Origin: an uncultured cyanobacterium
GTDB lineage: Bacteria; Cyanobacteriota; Cyanobacteriia; Gloeomargaritales; Gloeomargaritaceae
Assembly: GCA_937936705.1 (NCBI GenBank)
Contig: CALHCP010000134.1
Location: 1-38,802, forward strand
Direction of reading: 5' to 3'
Length of the DNA stretch: 38,802 nucleotides
The translations under genes and the position numbers were made by a program. This document shows, in pieces, positions 2,813-31,577 of the stretch. Within the stretch, counting starts at the first letter, position 1. Each line of letters begins with the position of its first letter. Under the pieces are notes generated by a model. It saw nothing but the letters and a program-made list of their open reading frames with translations, searched no databases and was not told the origin of the DNA.

Positions 2813-5014
2813 ATGTATGGTTCTATGGCACCTCCCTCTCGCTTGGGGTTGAGTCAATTGATTCAGACGTTTTACGCGGGGAAAGCCGCCCTCAAACCGC
2901 ACGCCCGGGTGCCGCAATTGTGGATTTATTACCCGGAAAGTCGGCAGCCGCAGGTGGTGCCGTTGGTGGGGGAACGCTACCTGTTCGGGCGCAGTACCCG
3001 CAACTGTGATATTCCGGTGCGGTCGGATTTGGTGAGTCAGGTGCACGGGTTACTGGAACGGCGGGGGCGGAGCTATGTCTTGGTGGATCAAAAGTCCACC
3101 AATGGCATCTACCGGGGGCGCCGTCCCATTCAACAGCAGATGCTGCGGCATGGGGACCGCTTCACCCTGGGGCCGCCGGAGTTGGCGGAGGTGGTGCGGT
3201 TGGTCTATGTTGACCCCCCCCGCTGGTATGTGCGGGGCATTCGTTACGTGCTGGGGGCAATGGGTCTGGGACTGGCCGGCTTGGGGGCATGGGTAGCGGT
3301 GGAATGGCAAAAGGTGGATGTCACACCGCTGCCCGCGGGGGCGCAAGGGGCGTTGGTGATTGTCTCCGGGGATGGGCAAACTCCCCTGCGGTCGCCTTGG
3401 CATAATGACCACCGAGAGCTGGCCCGCTTGGAGGATTTTTCCCCCTATTTGCCGCAGGCGGTGGTGGCTTCCGAAGATAGTCGCTTTTATTGGCATCCGG
3501 GGGTGGATGGGGTGGGGGTGCTGCGGGCGGTGCTGATTAACCTGTGGAACCGGGAAGTGCGGGAGGGAGCCAGTACGATTACCCAGCAGGTGGCGCGCAG
3601 CTTGTTCCGGGAGTACGTGGGGACGGAGGATTCCGCCGGACGCAAATTGCGGGAAGCGGTGGTGGCTCTCAAATTAGAAGCCCATTACGATAAAAAAACC
3701 ATTCTGACGGTGTACCTCAATAAGGTGTACCTGGGGATAGCGGGTTATGGGTTTGAGGATGCGGCGCGTTTTTATTTTGATAAATCGGCTCGGGATTTAA
3801 CTATTGCGGAGGCGGCGACCCTGGTGGGGATGCTCCCGGCGCCCAATCAATTTAACCCGGTGCAAAATTACGACACGGCCTTGAGGCTCCGCAACCGGGT
3901 CATTGACCGCATGGAAGCCCAGGGGATGATCACGGCCATGGAGGCACACCGCGCCCGGCGTTCCCGGATTGAGATTAGCCCCCGGGCCACGACTGATTTA
4001 CAAAGTACCATTGCTCCCTATTTTTACGACACAGTGCTGGCGGAATTGCAACAACTGCTGGGCAAAGGCTTGGCGCAAGAGGGCAATTTTATCGTGGATA
4101 CGGGCTTGGATATGGGGTTACAAAAACGGGCGGAAGACCACCTGGCTCGTTTTGTGGCCGCCTACGGTTCGACCTATGGCTTTGACCAGGGAGCCTTGGT
4201 CATCATTGACTCCCAAACCGGAGCAGTACGGGCATTGGTCGGCGGCAAAAACTATCAACAAAGTCAGTATAATCGCATTACCCAAGCCCAGCGTCAACCG
4301 GGTTCGGTGTTTAAGGTGTTTGTCTATGGGGCGGCGCTGGAGCAGGGGATTGCTTTGGAAACCACGTATGACTGTACGCCGTTGGTGTGGCAGGGGGTGC
4401 CGTTTAGCGGTTGTCGCTCCGGCAGTACCCCGTTGGATTTGACCCAGGCTTTGGCGCTTTCGGAAAATGTGGTGGCTTTGCGGTTGGCGCAACAGGTGGG
4501 TTTGGCACAAGTAGTCCGGTGGGCAAAACGCTTGGGGATCACGGCCAAACTCGACCCGGTGCCCGGTTTGGTGTTAGGACAAAGTGAAGTCACGCCCTGG
4601 GAGTTGACGGGCGCGTTTATGGCTTTGGCCAATCAGGGGATTAAACATGCGCCCCACACGATTACCCGTATCCGTGATAGCAGTGATTGTACCGACCGCA
4701 ACCGCCTGGAAACCTGTCGAGAGCTTTATCGCACTCCCCCCGGTCAGCCGGTGATTGCCCCGGAGGTGGCCGCCACCTTGACCGCCATGTTACAAACGGC
4801 GGTGGCGAATGGTACGGGGCGGGCGGCCTTTTTGGGTCGGGGAGAAGCGGGTAAAACCGGTACGACCAACGAGGCACGGGATATGTGGTTTGTGGGGTAT
4901 CGGCCAGGGGGGCTGGTGATGGGGGTATGGCTGGGCAATGACCAGAATCAACCGACTAAGGGGGGCAGCGGTTTGGCGGCGCAGTTGTGGGGCGAAGTCA
5001 TGGGCGGGGTGTAA
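2813..5014 (+). CDS. Class A penicillin-binding protein with N-terminal FHA domain
   Basis: This bifunctional peptidoglycan synthase polymerises glycan strands and cross-links stem peptides on the periplasmic side. Residues about 55-125 form an FHA phosphothreonine-binding domain (GR60, Ser75 and His78 in SQVH, N97-G98). A membrane anchor follows at about 143-163. The GT51 transglycosylase has Glu221 in the ASEDSRFYWHPG motif and STITQQVAR. The transpeptidase has Ser498 in GSVFK, SEN at 550-552 and KTG at 681-683, so all catalytic boxes look intact. Total length is 733 residues. ATG 2813 has AGGA 8 bp upstream; ATG 2825 is an alternative start. FHA-PBP fusions are known in cyanobacteria. The cytosolic FHA domain suggests control by a Ser/Thr kinase, which is inference; one such kinase is encoded at 26.2-27.7 kb. 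Confidence 0.93.
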   Translation: MYGSMAPPSRLGLSQLIQTFYAGKAALKPHARVPQLWIYYPESRQPQVVPLVGERYLFGRSTRNCDIPVRSDLVSQVHGLLERRGRSYVLVDQKSTNGIYRGRRPIQQQMLRHGDRFTLGPPELAEVVRLVYVDPPRWYVRGIRYVLGAMGLGLAGLGAWVAVEWQKVDVTPLPAGAQGALVIVSGDGQTPLRSPWHNDHRELARLEDFSPYLPQAVVASEDSRFYWHPGVDGVGVLRAVLINLWNREVREGASTITQQVARSLFREYVGTEDSAGRKLREAVVALKLEAHYDKKTILTVYLNKVYLGIAGYGFEDAARFYFDKSARDLTIAEAATLVGMLPAPNQFNPVQNYDTALRLRNRVIDRMEAQGMITAMEAHRARRSRIEISPRATTDLQSTIAPYFYDTVLAELQQLLGKGLAQEGNFIVDTGLDMGLQKRAEDHLARFVAAYGSTYGFDQGALVIIDSQTGAVRALVGGKNYQQSQYNRITQAQRQPGSVFKVFVYGAALEQGIALETTYDCTPLVWQGVPFSGCRSGSTPLDLTQALALSENVVALRLAQQVGLAQVVRWAKRLGITAKLDPVPGLVLGQSEVTPWELTGAFMALANQGIKHAPHTITRIRDSSDCTDRNRLETCRELYRTPPGQPVIAPEVAATLTAMLQTAVANGTGRAAFLGRGEAGKTGTTNEARDMWFVGYRPGGLVMGVWLGNDQNQPTKGGSGLAAQLWGEVMGGV

Positions 5015-23245: not shown

Positions 23246-23455
23246 TCAGGACAAGGAGCGGGGTTGATTCCGGAAATTCAGCAGTGGCCCCCACAGGAGC
23301 AGACCGGGGAAAAAGAAAAACACCAGAAAATACATAAACCCCCGCTCCACCGAACTCGCCACATACCAGCGTTGTTTGAGATAAAAATAAGTAGCCAACG
23401 GCAATACCAGGAGATACGCCCCCGTCAGAGCCAGATAGAGCAGTAAAACCACCAT
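23246..23455 (-). CDS. ndhL: NDH-1 subunit L
   Basis: NdhL is a small membrane subunit specific to the cyanobacterial/chloroplast NDH-1 complex of cyclic electron flow, CO2 uptake and respiration. The 69-residue product has two membrane helices with the conserved loop [20 protein letters not shown] between them and [14 protein letters not shown] plus LLNFR at the end. I use ATG 23455 ([10 protein letters not shown]), which matches the family start; an in-frame ATG at 23473 would add six residues. The start codon overlaps the start of the divergent gene in a CATG. Confidence 0.93.
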
Positions 23456-24809
23456 GCGCTTACCCCAAACCATACCCTTTTATCCTAATGCCTTCGGGAG
23501 CGGCCTGCTGATCCTAGCCAGCAGCACTTTCCCCTTCCTCGGCCAGCCCCAACCCTTGGCCACCCAAGCCGCCCGCCAAGCCCAACTGCAACAGGAACAA
23601 CAACGCCTGCAACCCGCCCATTACGACCTGAACCGCTACCCTCTGACGGAAACGCATCAAACCCATTGGCGCCGATTACTCTGGGCAACCGCCTTGCAGC
23701 AACCCCAACAGCCCTACGTTTTTCAGGCATTGCACCCAATGCTCCGGCGGGCGGCAGCCCAAAATCTGACTCCCACCGAAATGTCAATCATTACCCAAGC
23801 CTTGCAAGTGAGTAATTTGTATGTCCGTCAACATCCCCAAACCCGTGCCCCATTACAGGCCGGTTTACTCCAGGTGGTGCGCACCAGCCCCCACCCCCGC
23901 TGGGTCGCCTTGGCACTCAATGCCTTGGCTCGCAGTGGCAGCCTCACCCCTGCCCAACAAAGTCAACTGATTGCCCAAACCCGCCAACGCTTTCCCCAGC
24001 CCCCGGATTTACTCACCGTTGTCCTGCAAGATTTAGAACAACCGCCCTCGCCCTTGCCCCCGTTAGAAGCCTTACTGAACTGGCAGGCGCAACCGGGTCA
24101 GGTGCAACTGTATGTCTTTTGTCGAAATGATCGCTGGCGACCCTGTACCTTGATCGTCAAGGATAACCAGGGGGAATTTTACCGAGAAGCAGGGCAAATC
24201 TGGTCGCGGCAATTGTTACTCCAATCGGTGTACGGCTTGGACTGGGCTTTTACCTACGGGCAGACGCCCCAGGGGTTGCAGCGGTTGGCGGGGATTACGG
24301 AAACGCGCGCCGGGGAGTTATTTCGTGCCTATGGGCAGTTTCCGTTGGTGAAATTGTTTTTGCCGTTTGAGCCGGGGGTGCCGGAATTTTTCCCTGGCCA
24401 ACCGTCGCCTTGGCGGGGGACGTTGGCCGAGTACCAGGAACGCCTGCCCCCCGGTTGGCGGGATTACCCTGCTTTGCATCAGAGTTATCAGGCGGGGCGG
24501 TTGGGGCGGAGCTTACTAAGAATTCACGGGACGGGGGATGCGCCGGAATTGTTTGCCCGTCCCCAGGGGGTGACTCATGAGTGGAACCCGGCGTTGGGCT
24601 GCCTGACGGCGTTGGAGGTTTATACCTCGGCGGGGGAATTGCGCCAGGGGGATATGGCGGACATTTTACGGGTGTTGGCGCAGGCAAGTGACGGCACGTT
24701 TTTGGGCTATTTGCTGGTGGTGGAATTGCCGGATACGGTGGCAATGAGCGGGGGAACGGCCTGGTTGCAGCCTTACTTGGAAACGGCAGGGGAGCCGGTT
24801 CGCCCCTAG
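23454..24809 (+). CDS. Unknown secreted-looking protein
   Basis: This 451-residue protein is rich in Gln, Pro and Leu. A hydrophobic N-terminal part (about 15-33, [16 protein letters not shown]) may be a signal peptide, followed by a Gln-rich helical region (about 40-200) and a C-terminal half with many Trp and Phe ([20 protein letters not shown] near 223-242). Two Cys near 225 and 232 could form a disulfide. Codon use is like the neighbours, so it is a real gene. I do not recognise the family. ATG 23454 is the only usual start before the hydrophobic part and makes the start overlap that of ndhL. Its promoter must then lie inside ndhL. Confidence 0.7.
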
Positions 24810-25347: not shown

Positions 25348-26250
25348 GTGCGCGGGGAATGGGCAGCGCTGGGGGCGGCTTTGCTGTGGGCGAGTATGTC
25401 CCGGATTTATGCGGACTGGGGCAGAACGTTTGCGCCGCTGTTGTTGAATTGGCTGAAAGGGGTACTGGCGCTGGCGATGTTTGCCCTGACCTTGGCGGGT
25501 CGGGGGGAAGGGTGGCCGCCGGTGGGGGGGTGGCCGTTGGTGGGCTTGGCGGTGAGTGGGATTTTGGGGATTGGGGTGGGGGATACGGCTTTTTTTGCGG
25601 CGTTAAATTCCCTGGGGGCGCAGCGAACCTTATTGATGGATACCCTGTCGCCGATGTTGGTGACGCTGCTGGCCTGGCTGACGCTGGGAGAACAGATCGA
25701 GCCGGTGCGGTTGCTGGGTATGGTGCTGACGGTGACGGGGGTGGCGGTGACGGTGACGGAACGGCCGGTGACGGTGCGAGAGCGGTTTCATCTCTGGCCG
25801 GGGCTGGCCTGGGGAATGATTTTTGCGCTCTCCCAGGCGGCGGGGGTGGTGCTGTCGCGGTGGGCGTTGGCGGATTCGCCCCTGACGCCGGTGTGGAGTA
25901 CCACGATTCGGCTGACGGCGGGGGTGCTGGTGTTGGGGTTGGGGGTGGCGCGGCCGGAGTGTGCCCCCGGTTGGCGGGCGCTGCGGAAACACCCCCGTTG
26001 GCTGTGGGGGTTAGCCGGGACGGCGTTTCTGAGTACTTATGTGGGGATTTGGCTGCAGCAAACGGCTTTGAAATGGGCACCGGCGGGGATTGCCCAAACC
26101 CTGAGTAGTACCAGTCCCCTGTTTGCCCTGCTGTTGGCGCGGGCGGCGGGGGAACGGGTGAGTCGGCGGGCGTGGTTGGGGGTGGGGATGGCGCTGGTCG
26201 GTTGCGGGTGGTTATTTAGGATATTTTCACCTGTTGGGAGAGGCGGCTGA
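25348..26250 (+). CDS. EamA/DMT-family transporter
   Basis: This 300-residue inner-membrane protein has about ten hydrophobic helices in two EamA repeats, typical of drug/metabolite transporters. GIGVGDTAFFAALNSLGAQR and TLLMDTLSPMLVTLLAWL (near 75-110) are the family-like first repeat, and GIAQTLSSTSPLFALLLARA is the second. The substrate cannot be told. It starts with GTG 25348; no strong ribosome site is visible. The 3' end overlaps the convergent kinase gene by 35 bp. Its GC content is high, so long shadow frames exist in other frames, but only this one has the membrane pattern. Confidence 0.85.
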   Translation: MRGEWAALGAALLWASMSRIYADWGRTFAPLLLNWLKGVLALAMFALTLAGRGEGWPPVGGWPLVGLAVSGILGIGVGDTAFFAALNSLGAQRTLLMDTLSPMLVTLLAWLTLGEQIEPVRLLGMVLTVTGVAVTVTERPVTVRERFHLWPGLAWGMIFALSQAAGVVLSRWALADSPLTPVWSTTIRLTAGVLVLGLGVARPECAPGWRALRKHPRWLWGLAGTAFLSTYVGIWLQQTALKWAPAGIAQTLSSTSPLFALLLARAAGERVSRRAWLGVGMALVGCGWLFRIFSPVGRGG

Positions 26251-27748
26251 TGATCTGGGGTTTGAGCCGTTCGTATTCTCGGCGCAGCAGGTCTCTGCTC
26301 AGGTCGGGGGCGGGAGCGAGACGAGAAACTTGCCCCTGGTCGGCCCATTCTTGCAACAGGGGACGCTGGGCGGTGGCGATGGAAACCTCCAAACGATGGC
26401 GAAATTTATCCGGTTCTTCCAAACTGAATAACAGCAGATAGTAATGGCCGATTTCCCCCAAATAGCGGCAGATTTCCTGGCCTTCAGGGCGTTTCAAGTC
26501 CAGATAGCAGGGGAGCCAGCGGGGGTCTTGCTTGATTTGGTACAGGGCGGTAATCCACAGCACCATCGGGTGGGGAGTCGAGACGAAGAGAAATTGGTTG
26601 TAACAGCGATTCAAAACCCGTTGGTTGATTTCATCCTGGGGCAACATCGCCCACAGGCTGGGGATGCGGGAGGAACCGACGGGGATGAGCTTGGGAAAGA
26701 CGATTTTTTGGACGGGTTTATCCGCAGGCCAACTGAGTAAATCCCAGGATTCCACCGCGTGCTCCACACTGGGGCCGGTGGACACTTGCGGGTGGTAGGT
26801 GTGGTCGTCGGGGGCGCTCGGCCGGGGCAGAGGCGGCACCGGTTGGGGACGCAGGCTTTGTTCAACCCGGTCTAACCCCTGGATGACTTCGGCCATGTTG
26901 GCCGGACGGTCTTGGGGGTCTTTGGCAAGGCAATGTTGGATGAGCTTTTCGAGTTCGCTATTTTTGGGCAGTTTGGGGTTGATGGACTGCAGCGAGGGGG
27001 GAGCTTGCATGTGGTGGGCGCGATACCAAGCCCCGATGGATTCGATGGGGGCTTGGATGGGCACCTGGCCGGTGAGCATTTCAAACATCATCACACCCAG
27101 GCTATAGATGTCGGAGCGTTGGTCTAAACTGCGACCTTCGAGTTGCTCCGGCGAACAGTAGGCCAAGGTGCCGGTAAAGTGGGAAGTCTGATTGCTTTCC
27201 GGGTTTTCGTTGACAAACTTGGCAATGCCAAAATCTAAGATTTTCGCCAGCATGCCCAAACCGGGGTCCCGCACCACAAAGATATTGCTGGGTTTAATAT
27301 CCCGGTGGACGACGCTCCAAATCCGCCCGTCCACCTCAATCCCCTGGTGCGCGACCTGCAGACCGCGGGCGATCTGTTGGGCTAAGGGCAAAAACTGCTC
27401 CAGGGTTAAAGGCTGGACATCAATCATTTCCCGCAGGCTTTCCCCCTGCAAATACTCCATCACATAAAAGGGCAGTTCCGTCTCGTCCACCCCGTAATCC
27501 ATGACTCGGACAATGTGGATACTTTTATTCCCCAACAAAGCGCAGGCGCGGGCTTCGCTGGCGAACCGCTCCTTGCCTTTCTCATCCATCAGGGCTTGGG
27601 AGAGAAACTTGACCGCCACCGCCACCCCCCCCAGCAGCGTATCGGCGGCCTGATAGACCTTGCCCATGCTGCCACGCCCGACGATGGCCTGCAACTTATA
27701 ACGTTTAGCCAATAACCGCCCGATCCAGGGGTCTTGCGCCTTGGTCAT
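26216..27748 (-). CDS. Ser/Thr protein kinase with extra C-terminal domain
   Basis: This 510-residue protein has a Hanks-type kinase domain (about 17-290): glycine loop GRGSMGKVY (24-32), Lys47, HRDIKPSNIF (148-157, catalytic Asp150), DFGIAK (172-177), SPEQLEGR in the activation segment and DIYSLGVMMFEMLTG. All catalytic residues are present. Residues about 300-340 are Pro-rich; 340-510 form a second region (WDLLSWPADKPVQKIVFPKL onward) that I do not recognise. No membrane helix is seen, so it is cytosolic. ATG 27748 is preferred to TTG 27766. It is 56 bp after the FHA-cyclase stop, in a probable operon, and overlaps the EamA gene by 35 bp. FHA proteins are natural partners of such kinases. 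Confidence 0.9.
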   Translation of the reverse strand: MTKAQDPWIGRLLAKRYKLQAIVGRGSMGKVYQAADTLLGGVAVAVKFLSQALMDEKGKERFASEARACALLGNKSIHIVRVMDYGVDETELPFYVMEYLQGESLREMIDVQPLTLEQFLPLAQQIARGLQVAHQGIEVDGRIWSVVHRDIKPSNIFVVRDPGLGMLAKILDFGIAKFVNENPESNQTSHFTGTLAYCSPEQLEGRSLDQRSDIYSLGVMMFEMLTGQVPIQAPIESIGAWYRAHHMQAPPSLQSINPKLPKNSELEKLIQHCLAKDPQDRPANMAEVIQGLDRVEQSLRPQPVPPLPRPSAPDDHTYHPQVSTGPSVEHAVESWDLLSWPADKPVQKIVFPKLIPVGSSRIPSLWAMLPQDEINQRVLNRCYNQFLFVSTPHPMVLWITALYQIKQDPRWLPCYLDLKRPEGQEICRYLGEIGHYYLLLFSLEEPDKFRHRLEVSIATAQRPLLQEWADQGQVSRLAPAPDLSRDLLRREYERLKPQIISRLSQQVKIS

Positions 27749-27804
27749 GCCTGTAACCTGCTGCAACCGTGCCCCATCACGCGCTCAGTGACACTGACTC
27801 TATC

Positions 27805-28857
27805 CTACACAAAGCCACGGCCTTCGGATATGGGATTTTGGGTGGGGGGTTCAACGAAGCCGTAGGTGTGCAAAAATTGCTTTAATTCCGCATAGGTACT
27901 GCCCCAAATCGGCACCGGTTCCGGTTGATATTTCAGTTGTAGCCAGTGGCGGGTGAGCCAGCCGGCTAGATCGCCGGCCGATAAATGTTCATAGGTCGTT
28001 GCCCCCAGGAGAACGTCCAGGTTGAGGGTCTTGGTCGCCGCTTCCAGTTGAAAGGCCAAATTCACCGTATCCCCAATGGCGGTATAGTCCGGGCGCTGGC
28101 CGCTGCCCGTGTTGCCGACCATGGCATAGCCGGTATTGATGCCAGTGCCGAGCCGCAACGCAAAAGGCAAAGGGTACTGCAAATGGAGATTACTGGTGGT
28201 TTTTTCGGTGCCCAAGACCGCCTTGAGGATGCGTAACAAATCGTAAGGATGCGGCGCATTCTGGGGATGAATCCAGACCGCCATCACCGCATCGCCAATG
28301 TACTTATCCACCCGGGAGCCGTACCGTTGGAGAATATCCCCCACTTGGCGAAACCAGGTTCCCACCACCTGCGCCAGCAATTCCTCCGGCACCTGCCGAG
28401 CCAAGGGCGTAAAATCCCGCAAATCCATCACCACCACCGTAATCAAACACCGCACCTTCATTGCCGACGTGGCTTTGTCCCATTCCTCCTCCCATTCCGG
28501 CTTGAGGGGTAGGTTGAGGCGGGGGGCTTGACAGATAAACTGCATCCGGGTCTCGCCAAACATGACCTCATCCCGGTGTTGCAAACGTACCGGCACCGTC
28601 ACCCGGTGACCATTCACAAAACTGCCATTGCGACTGCCCAAATCAATCAGATAGAAGCCATCCTCCGGCAACCATTGGATGAGGGCGTGCATCCGGGAAA
28701 TCCAGGGATTATTCAGGACAATCGCCGCCCGGTCACTGCGCCCCACCGTCCAAGACGTCGCCCCCACCAAGCCAAAGGTCTCGCCGGGCTTTCCTTGCGG
28801 CGTCAAGCGTATTAATTGGGCAGAGGGGGCAGATGGCAGCACAAGACACACCGGCAA
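27805..28857 (-). CDS. Class III adenylyl cyclase with N-terminal FHA domain
   Basis: The 350-residue protein resembles Synechocystis Cya1-type FHA cyclases. FHA domain about 27-105: GR40S, Ser54-x-x-His57, N77-G78. Cyclase domain about 135-320: metal Asp145 (VVMDLRDFT) and Asp189 (KYIGDAVMAVW), Lys185, Asp257-Tyr258-Thr259 (PDYTAIGDTVN), and Asn266. The Arg expected four residues after this Asn (N-x3-R) is Gln270 here (NLAFQLE, codon CAA). That Arg stabilises the transition state in class III cyclases, so activity may be reduced or lost. Start: TTG 28857 is the first codon of the pattern; GTG 28851 is the alternative. It sits 22 bp after the MltA-like gene and 56 bp before the kinase gene. 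Confidence 0.88.
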   Translation of the reverse strand: MPVCLVLPSAPSAQLIRLTPQGKPGETFGLVGATSWTVGRSDRAAIVLNNPWISRMHALIQWLPEDGFYLIDLGSRNGSFVNGHRVTVPVRLQHRDEVMFGETRMQFICQAPRLNLPLKPEWEEEWDKATSAMKVRCLITVVVMDLRDFTPLARQVPEELLAQVVGTWFRQVGDILQRYGSRVDKYIGDAVMAVWIHPQNAPHPYDLLRILKAVLGTEKTTSNLHLQYPLPFALRLGTGINTGYAMVGNTGSGQRPDYTAIGDTVNLAFQLEAATKTLNLDVLLGATTYEHLSAGDLAGWLTRHWLQLKYQPEPVPIWGSTYAELKQFLHTYGFVEPPTQNPISEGRGFV

Positions 28858-28879
28858 TGAGGGTCACAGCAGCGGGACG

Positions 28880-29983
28880 TCAATCCTTTTTAACTAAAAC
28901 ATAAGCTTGGGTATATTCCGGTAAACGGCGGTTGTAGGCAAAAAACTCCTGACGGCCATCAAAAATGCCGGCCAAGTAATCCAATTGCGCCAGATTGGGC
29001 AAAAATGCCCCCCCCGTATCGGCGATTGCCCCCAGCATCAACTGCCCCGGCGCGCGTTCCAGCACTACTATCCGTCCCAGCCCGACATTCCAAACATCCC
29101 CGGCGAAGGTTACACCGGGGCGGATGGCAATTTTATTCCCGATTTCACTGCCATAACCGCGGATGGCATCCACCTCCCGAAAGTACCAGTACCGTTGTTG
29201 CTCCCAGGGGGGCACCCCCCGGACAAAGGCAATCCCATTATGGCGATCCACATTGAAATAACGGGTCGTCCGGTCGGGAAACTGGATGAGAATCGTCCCC
29301 TGCAATAAGGCTTCCTCCAACCCGGCGCGGGTTAAATAGGCCAAGGGGGTCACCTTGGCCGCCTCCGGGCGACCGGGCGCATACACCCCGCTCAAAACCT
29401 CTTGCTTGGTGTATTTCTGGTAAAACTTTTCGGCTGCCCACTCCTCGTTAATGCTGTACAAAGCATGGACATACTCCCCCTGGGGTTGGCGACGACCAGG
29501 ATGCCGAAACACCGCATACTTAGTCAGGCGCAACTGCGGGGAGGGGTTGCCTTGCGGATGATATGCCCGCCAGCCCAGCACCCGGAAATGCTGCCGCAGA
29601 AACTCCGAATTCTGAAGACGAATCGGTTGCGCTTCGGTCAAATCCGCCAGCAGCACATCAATCATAAAATCCAGCGTGCGGGTCACATCCGCCACCTGTA
29701 CCCCCAGCCCCCCCAAGAGACCGGGGCGTTGGATCACCACATCCCGCTCCCCCTGCTCCCGGAAGTAACGGCGGGTGTTGATTAAAACGATCAACAACTC
29801 CTGGGGGTCAAAGGTCACTTGCCCTGGCGGTAAGGTGCGTTCCTGAAAAATCGCTTGGGGATTGACCCGATACCGGCTCTGACCGAATTCATCCACCACC
29901 GCATAGTCACCGGTGGCTCTGGCGGGTTGTCCCGTCAACAGTAGCGTCGCCCCCAGCAGGGCAGACCAAAGGCAGCGGCTCAT
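28880..29983 (-). CDS. MltA/3D-domain-like secreted protein
   Basis: This 367-residue protein has a signal peptide (MSRCLWSALLGATLLLTGQP, cut near residue 23) and a C-terminal region with ADTGGAFLPN (Asp322), the Asp-Thr-Gly-Gly motif of MltA and 3D-domain lytic transglycosylases. The N-terminal half (LDFMIDVLLADLTEAQPIRL) and central ILIQFPDRTTRYFNVDRHNG fit the MltA-like fold. The likely role is to cleave peptidoglycan glycan strands in the periplasm, but I am not certain of the family. ATG 29983 is used, as the longer frame needs TTG 30019. It is the first gene of the minus-strand cluster with the cyclase and kinase. Confidence 0.55.
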   Translation of the reverse strand: MSRCLWSALLGATLLLTGQPARATGDYAVVDEFGQSRYRVNPQAIFQERTLPPGQVTFDPQELLIVLINTRRYFREQGERDVVIQRPGLLGGLGVQVADVTRTLDFMIDVLLADLTEAQPIRLQNSEFLRQHFRVLGWRAYHPQGNPSPQLRLTKYAVFRHPGRRQPQGEYVHALYSINEEWAAEKFYQKYTKQEVLSGVYAPGRPEAAKVTPLAYLTRAGLEEALLQGTILIQFPDRTTRYFNVDRHNGIAFVRGVPPWEQQRYWYFREVDAIRGYGSEIGNKIAIRPGVTFAGDVWNVGLGRIVVLERAPGQLMLGAIADTGGAFLPNLAQLDYLAGIFDGRQEFFAYNRRLPEYTQAYVLVKKD

Positions 29984-30152
29984 GGAATTGATGCAGTACA
30001 ATACCTGAGAGTGAAGCAAACTATATCAGTTATACAGTTTTATGTAATTCAGAAGAGGGGTCGTAGGTTGATGTGCCCATCGGCTCACCGAGCTACATCT
30101 AAAATTAAAATAAATATAAATAAAAAATTAACAGCACCTCTAGCGCCATCCT

Positions 30153-30363: not shown

Positions 30364-30400
30364 GCAGCGGGGCTTGGATTCTCCTTCCATCCGCCCACGG

Positions 30401-30428
30401 TGGACATTTCCGATTTCTCTTGGTATAG
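30401..30428 (+). promoter_or_regulatory. Promoter of the 30466 gene
   Basis: TGGACA (30401-30406) and TATAGT (30423-30428) are 16 bp apart, a sigma-70 type arrangement. The predicted start point is near 30435, about 30 bp before the ATG at 30466. Confidence 0.55.
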
Positions 30429-30465
30429 TGCCGTCACTGGGTTATTTTTTTTAATAAAAGTATTT

Positions 30466-30882
30466 ATGCTCTCTCCCGTATCGCCGATTCCCCGTGTAGT
30501 GGCCGAGGTCGCGCCTCTGCTGGTGCGGTATCGGTATGAACCGGATGAGACGCAGGCGGCTCAGCTGGTGGAGGCCTGGGCAAAGCAGTATCCGGAGGAG
30601 TGGATTCGCCCAGCGGTGGTGGAAACCCTTTATCAAGCCCGCTACAAAAGTATTTCCGTGGAGCAGGTGTTGAATCTCTGGCAGCGGCAGGGACGACCGC
30701 ACCCCCACTATCCTGGGGATTTTGAGCGGTTGGTGAGTCGCTCCAGTCCCGAACGGAGCGGGAGTCCTTTGCCCCGGGTGGTTTCCCGGCCGCCCCTGGG
30801 GGTATTGCCCGCCAAGGTCACCGAACCTCAGTATCAGAAATTGCGTACCCTGGCGGCAGTGCAGCCGGTGCGAGAGTCCTGA
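30466..30882 (+). CDS. Conserved hypothetical protein
   Basis: This 138-residue cytosolic protein has a helical N-terminal part (VVAEVAPLLVRYRYEPDETQ and the following helix), a segment YQARYKSISVEQVLNLWQRQ (about 57-76) that looks like a helix-turn-helix or DnaD-like region, and a basic, Pro-rich tail. I do not know its function. ATG 30466 is chosen over upstream frame extension to 30400 because the promoter lies in that extension. The stop TGA overlaps the next start as TGATG (30880-30884), so the two are translationally coupled. Confidence 0.65.
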   Translation: MLSPVSPIPRVVAEVAPLLVRYRYEPDETQAAQLVEAWAKQYPEEWIRPAVVETLYQARYKSISVEQVLNLWQRQGRPHPHYPGDFERLVSRSSPERSGSPLPRVVSRPPLGVLPAKVTEPQYQKLRTLAAVQPVRES

Positions 30883-31577
30883 TGGGGCAGCCGGGGGCGA
30901 TTTTTGTGGATGCGGTGGGCACCCTGTTCGGCGTGCGGGGTTCGGTGGGGCAAATTTACAGCGAATGGGCGGCCAAAATTGGGGTCACGGTGTCGCCAGC
31001 TGCTTTACAACAGGCGTTTATCCAGGTTTTCCAGGCGGCTCCTGCCTGTGCCTTCCCGGAGCTTGCCCCTGGTGAGATTCCGGCGGCGGAGTACCGATAC
31101 TGGTATCAGATCACGGAGCAAACCTTCGCCCAGGCGGGGGGCTTAGCTGCCCTTGGGGATTTTGCCGCCTTTTTCCCCGCGGTGTATGCCGCCTTTGCCA
31201 CCGCCGACCCTTGGGAATTATACCCGGATGCCCTGCCCGCATTGCAGGCTTGGCAGGCGCAGGGGATTCCGGTGGGGGTCATTTCTAACTTTGATGGGCG
31301 GCTCTACCGGGTTTTGGATGCTTTGGGGCTCAGCCCGTGGCTACAGAGCGTGACCATTTCCAGCCACGTGGGGGCAGCGAAACCGGACGCGCGGATTTTT
31401 CAGGCGGCGTGGCAAGCGCTGGGACAACCGGAACCGCCCCTATGGCACATTGGCGATAGCTGGACGGCGGATGTGTTGGGAGCCAGAGCGGTGGGCTGGC
31501 GGGGGATTTATCTGTGCCGGGACGGGGGTAAGCTGGAGACAGACCGGGTGCAACGGTTGACGGATGTACTCGCTTAA
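30882..31577 (+). CDS. HAD-superfamily protein, HDHD3/haloacid dehalogenase-like
   Basis: This 231-residue protein has motif I FVDAVGTLF, where the nucleophile Asp10 is kept but the second Asp (Asp+2) is Val12, a feature of dehalogenase-like and HDHD3/REG-2-like groups rather than classic phosphatases. Motif II is VISNFDGRL, the Lys lies in HVGAAKPDARIF, and motif III is HIGDSWTADVLGA. Its reaction is therefore uncertain; phosphatase activity should not be assumed. It overlaps the previous gene at TGATG and is 6 bp upstream of a small membrane protein gene. Confidence 0.82.
   Translation: MGQPGAIFVDAVGTLFGVRGSVGQIYSEWAAKIGVTVSPAALQQAFIQVFQAAPACAFPELAPGEIPAAEYRYWYQITEQTFAQAGGLAALGDFAAFFPAVYAAFATADPWELYPDALPALQAWQAQGIPVGVISNFDGRLYRVLDALGLSPWLQSVTISSHVGAAKPDARIFQAAWQALGQPEPPLWHIGDSWTADVLGARAVGWRGIYLCRDGGKLETDRVQRLTDVLA

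Follow-up and report, generated by a model that had tools for sequence, protein, structure and literature searches.

Control of the cell wall by Ser/Thr kinases is known from Gram-positive bacteria, and in mycobacteria the FHA adaptors FhaA and FhaB are encoded beside PknA/PknB, a penicillin-binding protein (PBP) and PstP. Another protein with an FHA domain, at its N-terminus, is the cyanobacterial cyclase Cya1. Cya1 (slr1991), a class III enzyme of Synechocystis PCC 6803, serves there as the main soluble adenylyl cyclase, according to the available text of PMC10117731. The PASTA kinases of Gram-positive bacteria (PknB/PrkC/Stk1) have a role tied to the cell wall, and FHA and kinase genes are clustered in M. 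tuberculosis, as the available part of PMC1262709 describes. In the accessible text of a 2025 review on cyanobacterial Ser/Thr phosphorylation, the terms 'peptidoglycan' and 'cell wall' are absent (PMC11863333). Here we describe a row of three minus-strand genes in the window, a stretch of 38,802 nucleotides (contig CALHCP010000134.1) from an uncultured cyanobacterium of the Gloeomargaritaceae; the genes encode an MltA-like protein, an FHA protein with a class III cyclase domain, and a Ser/Thr kinase. Gloeomargarita is considered to stand closest to the ancestor of plastids. Our leading interpretation, which is tentative, is that the row is a Gloeomargarita-specific and probably co-transcribed set that would attach phosphothreonine signalling to cell-wall turnover, with the FHA protein, a putative pseudo-cyclase, as adaptor.

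How does the row compare with the systems above? Like FhaA/FhaB, its FHA gene lies beside a Ser/Thr kinase gene; unlike them, it has the FHA domain joined to a degenerate cyclase in one protein, and an MltA relative as its wall gene. Both the row protein and Cya1 have a class III cyclase, a likeness taken from the description of Cya1, and the layout of the row protein is that of 55 intact cyanobacterial FHA-cyclases. Unlike Cya1, all eight copies found in this gene cluster are without the transition-state Arg, and some are without further residues. The three genes had been proposed to form a tight minus-strand cluster in a first-pass annotation of the sequence, and the list of open reading frames confirms it, with intergenic gaps of 22 bp and then 38 or 56 bp according to the kinase start codon chosen. 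The features of the row are as follows.

28880..30019, minus strand: MltA-like gene, 379 amino acids when counted from the first TTG, with 29983 as the likely start of translation
27805..28857, minus strand: 350-amino-acid protein that joins an FHA domain to a degenerate class III cyclase domain (Pfam and residue alignment)
28555..28752, minus strand: FHA domain; phosphothreonine-binding residues Arg40, Ser54, Arg55, His57, Asn77 and Gly78 present
27979..28443, minus strand: cyclase-like domain; residue 270, the transition-state Arg position, is Gln; Asp145, Lys185, Asp189, Thr259 and Asn266 kept
26216..27766, minus strand: Ser/Thr protein kinase, 516 amino acids; Gly loop, Lys, HRD, DFG and PEQ intact
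26219..26734, minus strand: C-terminal kinase region of some 170 residues, a conserved domain; predicted local distance difference test score (pLDDT) >85 approximately over model residues 21-190

Is the cyclase of the row still an enzyme? Pfam assigns the middle protein to FHA (PF00498, E 1e-21) and to the class III cyclase fold, the latter a weak match (PF00211, E 3e-9, 37 bits at a cut-off of 21.9). The active site of class III cyclases consists of two metal Asp, a Lys, a Thr, an Asn and the transition-state Arg. These positions were compared in an alignment of 63 FHA-cyclases, namely the 8 cluster copies, 7 paralogues at other loci of the Gloeomargaritaceae and 48 proteins from other cyanobacteria, a non-random set chosen from search matches and including one with a truncated FHA part. 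The six residues are complete in 48/48 of the other cyanobacterial proteins, in 7/7 of the paralogues and in 0/8 of the cluster copies, so that no cluster copy has the full residue set of a class III adenylyl cyclase. The position of the transition-state Arg is occupied by Gln in five cluster copies and by His, Ala and Asp in one each. Naming the eight Gloeomargaritaceae genomes G000 (the source of the window) to G007, the Arg is the sole catalytic loss in G000, G001, G002, G004 and G005; the copy of G006 has in addition lost metal Asp, Thr and Asn, that of G007 Lys and Asn, and that of G003 has none of the six left. The six phosphothreonine-binding residues of the FHA domain are intact in all eight copies. 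Judged by these residues, the cyclase of the cluster would appear to be a pseudo-cyclase. The earlier name 'FHA-adenylyl cyclase' thus stands for the FHA domain and the class III fold and is doubtful as to cyclase activity, the Arg being absent throughout. Intact FHA-cyclases are themselves widespread, with a match at E <= 1e-45 in 203 of 291 genomes of the class, and the genome of the window has ten FHA matches in total, among them two FHA domains in one frame of 939 amino acids (G000:C30:5686-6231).

There is a further question, whether a gene with such an eroded site is still maintained. An intact FHA-cyclase paralogue occurs in each of G001-G007, and the window's own genome (83% complete; 2.05 Mb in 169 contigs; genus shared with G002 and G006) yielded none. 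Between paralogues and cluster copies, identity is down to about 50%. A maximum-likelihood tree places them in two groups, one of cluster copies (97/84) and one of paralogues (96/90), but the tree program flags the cluster copies of G007 and G003 as long branches and the placement of both is unsure. Within G001-G007 the mean pairwise identity of the cyclase domain is 0.63 for cluster copies vs 0.89 for paralogues, and that of the FHA domain 0.68 vs 0.87. In five genome pairs, the ratio of nonsynonymous to synonymous differences (pN/pS) is 0.07-0.36 for the cluster cyclase domain and 0.04-0.10 for the kinase, and the reading frame of the FHA-cyclase is intact in all eight cluster copies. The cluster FHA-cyclase gene is maintained under purifying selection. 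This selection and the FHA residues kept in every copy make an adaptor role likelier for the protein.

Conservation of the gene order had been suggested as a check of the cluster, with loss of the order even in close relatives as the outcome to speak against it. The order is kept: MltA-like gene, FHA-cyclase gene and kinase gene follow each other on a common strand in 7/7 genomes of the genus (G000-G006), and gaps of tens of bp recur across all of them. Such conservation exceeds chance expectation. On the upstream side, a gene for a 160-amino-acid protein and a HAD gene adjoin the row in all six genus genomes whose contigs are long enough; on the downstream side, an EamA gene is not always nearby. 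The sister genus (G007) has the FHA gene directly next to the kinase gene, and the MltA-like gene sits on a separate short contig, not beside the FHA gene, with no FHA-cyclase reading frame within 767 bp downstream of it. Then how far does the row extend beyond the family? The MltA-like gene occurs in 51 of the 291 class genomes, 8 of those being Gloeomargaritaceae, and 23 of its neighbourhoods were fetched out of the 43 gene-bearing genomes from other families. In these 23 the complete row was not found, and an FHA-cyclase stands beside the MltA-like gene in none; the kinase does so once, in Anabaena sp. 4-3, with anmK and a gene for a 150-amino-acid protein between. As for transcription, a scan gave 5 promoter-like sites against 2.6 expected (standard deviation 1.6) and 3 terminator-like sites against 5.5 (2.3). 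It found no minus-strand terminator-like site inside or between the three genes, the counts being at background level, and a minus-strand promoter-like site upstream of the MltA-like gene, also at background level.

The first gene belongs to its family by a remote relationship. The window protein has no Pfam match, also at E <= 1. Its relationship becomes visible through its homologues, of which 27 out of 30 were aligned (L028, with an in-frame stop, L026 and L079 were excluded): 12/27 match PF03562 (MltA), weakly, with a best E of 2.9e-4, and 9/27 match PF06725 (3D), also weakly, with a best E of 0.04. Compared with a profile of 20 canonical cyanobacterial MltA, 7 of which are without the DTG(G)A pattern and were kept in the alignment, their profile reached a probability of 85% in local and 82% in global mode, while two unrelated control profiles gave 0.2% and 0.7%; the local alignment covers query columns 73-294, and the 3D part lies outside it. 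Asp 308, 334 and 347 are invariant in 27/27 homologues, and Asp residues of the 3D domain are presumably catalytic in MltA. The row protein is thus collinear with the MltA insert domain in the profile and has a 3D-type C-terminus with invariant Asp; unlike canonical MltA, it falls below Pfam detection in the window, and its spacing from DTGGA to Asp is 13 vs 12. Against PDB sequences the protein gave chance-level matches to peptide deformylase (E 0.12) and its profile none, and a structure model from 4 sequences was too poor for use (mean pLDDT 46). These comparisons support a remote assignment of the putative wall gene to MltA, so the earlier label 'MltA-like' holds by way of the homologues and the profile and not by a direct Pfam match. 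Since a canonical MltA is found elsewhere in the genome in 7/8 Gloeomargaritaceae, the one in the row would be a second and diverged MltA-type protein. Its N-terminus resembles a signal peptide, as judged by eye from the sequence.

The catalytic motifs of the kinase are intact. Its catalytic domain is found by PF00069 at E 9e-45, all eight cluster kinases have the Gly loop, Lys, HRD, DFG and PEQ of Hanks-type kinases, and Thr residues of the activation loop are conserved across the eight. Is it a PASTA kinase? It resembles those as a Ser/Thr kinase with a wall connection, and its best NCBIfam match is the PASTA kinase model NF033483, with 250 bits over model positions 1-276 of 563. We rejected this assignment: the score is below the cut-off of 450 and covers the kinase part only, and PASTA repeats were not found in Pfam. 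Neither an extracellular part nor a PASTA part is predicted for the window kinase, and it has a different domain at its C-terminus. This region of about 170 residues, noted as unrecognised in the first pass, indeed has no Pfam family; among 24 members there were just weak matches of single members. The region is found in 30/39 relatives and in 195/291 class genomes, and its matches, among those listed, lie mostly within reading frames of kinase length. Many cyanobacterial kinases are without an additional domain and were grouped as 'cbSTKI-other', according to the available part of a 2007 survey (PMC2176072). A fold prediction, which had been proposed for this region, gave a confident model from 53 sequences (mean pLDDT 88.7). 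Searches with it returned nothing among PDB folds at E <= 0.001, and the sequence profile of the region gave chance-level matches only against PDB sequences (E 1.7). A second-look fold comparison had its best Z of 3.4 over 94 residues, with MRP1/MRP2, and there was a match to one unnamed viral predicted protein (E 6.9e-4, TM 0.50/0.56); weak or absent fold matches are no proof of a new fold. On the strength of the model, the kinase C-terminal region is a conserved, confidently predicted domain without a Pfam family or a clear PDB match.

Where is this kinase found in other cyanobacteria? In a number of them the orthologous kinase lies just downstream of anmK. The enzyme AnmK phosphorylates 1,6-anhydro-MurNAc, which is a product of lytic transglycosylases. 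Of the best 80 of 392 loci encoding the C-terminal domain of the kinase, a sample rich in Nostoc, 48 have AnmK as a neighbour, 56 the 150-amino-acid protein and 50 a PP2C phosphatase. AnmK and the 150-amino-acid gene always share the strand of the kinase (48/48 and 56/56), the PP2C gene in 1/50, and the kinase stands just downstream of anmK and the 150-amino-acid gene. Pfam confirms the AnmK neighbour (E 1.5e-105) and the PP2C. The arrangement of AnmK, the 150-amino-acid protein (without Pfam match), kinase and convergent PP2C recurs in loci L108-L178, for example L175 2883-8810. Among the matches listed, 96 genomes have both anmK and the kinase gene, and 54 have the two on one contig. The two matches are 1.5-2.3 kb apart in 33/96 genomes, on the same strand in 33/33, with 12 families represented; in the next closest case they are 53 kb apart. 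The figure of 33/96 rests on the matches listed and is no census, the 12 families share ancestry, the distances run from the AnmK match to the match of the C-terminal domain and include the catalytic domain of the kinase, and in one linked genome (G014) anmK is broken into several frames. Orthologues beside anmK elsewhere and an MltA relative here tie the kinase to muropeptide recycling and to a relative of MltA. In the titles and abstract openings of the openly accessible literature, we came across no paper that treats such a gene row or links the kinase with anmK.

Another wall protein lies further off in the window. A PBP with an FHA domain at 2.8 kb, put forward before as part of the same story, is real: it has the Pfam domains Transgly, Transpeptidase and FHA, and its N-terminal FHA keeps GR, SxxH and NG. 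In G004 the end of this gene is 0.4 kb from the HAD gene next to the row (L065 2029-5353); in the window the distance is about 21 kb. This FHA-PBP is a natural candidate for a client of the Thr kinase. It and the upstream neighbours of the row are located as follows.

2813..5014, plus strand: class A penicillin-binding protein with N-terminal FHA, a possible client, 21 kb from the row
30400..31577, plus strand: divergent upstream neighbours, a 160-amino-acid protein of unknown family and a HAD hydrolase, kept beside the row in the genus

The 160-amino-acid protein (30400-30882) has a sub-threshold match to DUF6895 as its sole Pfam sign. A 451-amino-acid protein without Pfam or NCBIfam match (23454-24809) also occurs near the row in G003, G004 and G006, within the stretches fetched from these genomes.

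How might these parts work together? The kinase would autophosphorylate on Thr, and the FHA protein would bind the phosphothreonine of the kinase and act as adaptor between kinase and clients, its cyclase domain now being perhaps mainly a dimerising body. The FHA-carrying class A PBP would be a plausible cytoplasmic client, and the MltA-like enzyme, if exported, would be linked by shared expression without direct contact. The loss of catalytic residues suggests phosphorylation, not cyclic AMP (cAMP), as the tie to cell-wall turnover. The phosphothreonine/cAMP link to peptidoglycan proposed at first is thereby reduced to one of its halves. The phosphothreonine part is a reasonable hypothesis in view of the intact FHA residues in all eight copies, the FHA motifs of the PBP, the MltA-related first gene and, as independent support from outside the window, the orthologues linked to anmK. 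For the cAMP part, a fully working FHA-adenylyl cyclase that connects phosphothreonine and cAMP directly with the wall, the intact FHA domain and the five of six catalytic residues in the window copy might be cited; we do not favour it and regard it as very improbable, as the Arg is present in 55/55 relatives and in 0/8 cluster copies, with more residues lost in 3/8.

A weaker form of cAMP signalling deserves more attention, though we still consider it unlikely. Here the cluster FHA protein would tune cAMP according to the state of the kinase, being half-active or a dominant-negative partner in a heterodimer with the intact paralogue. Five of the eight copies have lost the Arg alone, with metal Asp, Lys, Thr and Asn in place, each of G001-G007 has a paralogue to pair with, selection still constrains the cyclase domain, and a heterodimer would, by the site logic of these enzymes, retain one competent site. 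However, the gene order is kept although none of the six residues is left in G003 and at least three are gone in G006 and G007, the partner was not found in the window's own incomplete genome, and an identity of about 50% separates paralogue and cluster copies. Alternatively, the three genes might be unrelated chance neighbours, held together by slow rearrangement in a small genus, with the FHA-cyclase decaying. The single outside neighbourhood with kinase and MltA-like gene, the separation of the latter from the FHA gene in G007, and the faster evolution of the FHA protein than of the other two row proteins in most pairs agree with this, but order, strand and short gaps persist in seven genomes though one flank changes, the frames are intact in all eight copies, and pN/pS is well below 1. 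We therefore hold chance neighbourhood to be quite improbable.

Several observations weigh against the adaptor interpretation itself. The window copy lacks the Arg alone, so some cyclase activity is possible. The pN/pS of the FHA domain (0.06-0.34) is not clearly tighter than that of the cyclase domain, and a further minus-strand promoter-like site, at background level, lies inside the FHA gene. With a signal peptide the MltA-like protein would be exported, and a cytoplasmic kinase could not act on its mature form. What is more, in 22/23 neighbourhoods of other families the MltA-like gene is away from the kinase. All eight Gloeomargaritaceae genomes have anmK, yet separate from the contig stretch of the row, the 150-amino-acid neighbour of anmK was not found in 6/6 Gloeomargarita genomes searched, and the anmK link and the MltA-like link are found together in Anabaena sp. 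4-3 only.

Then what would such a kinase be for? It is conceivable, as a speculation to which we give little weight, that the kinase family with its own C-terminal domain is the cyanobacterial counterpart of PASTA kinases and reads wall turnover from inside the cell, for example through a recycled muropeptide bound by the domain, and that in Gloeomargarita the family gained a dead FHA-cyclase as adaptor. If true, this would explain the company that the kinase keeps, anmK in many lineages and, in Gloeomargarita, a relative of MltA. In any case, experiments have a concrete gene to start from in a kinase family that is linked with anmK across 12 families of cyanobacteria and, in the genus Gloeomargarita, with an MltA relative. 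The FHA protein, maintained with its cyclase site eroded, would also be a clear example from nature of an enzyme that became an adaptor.

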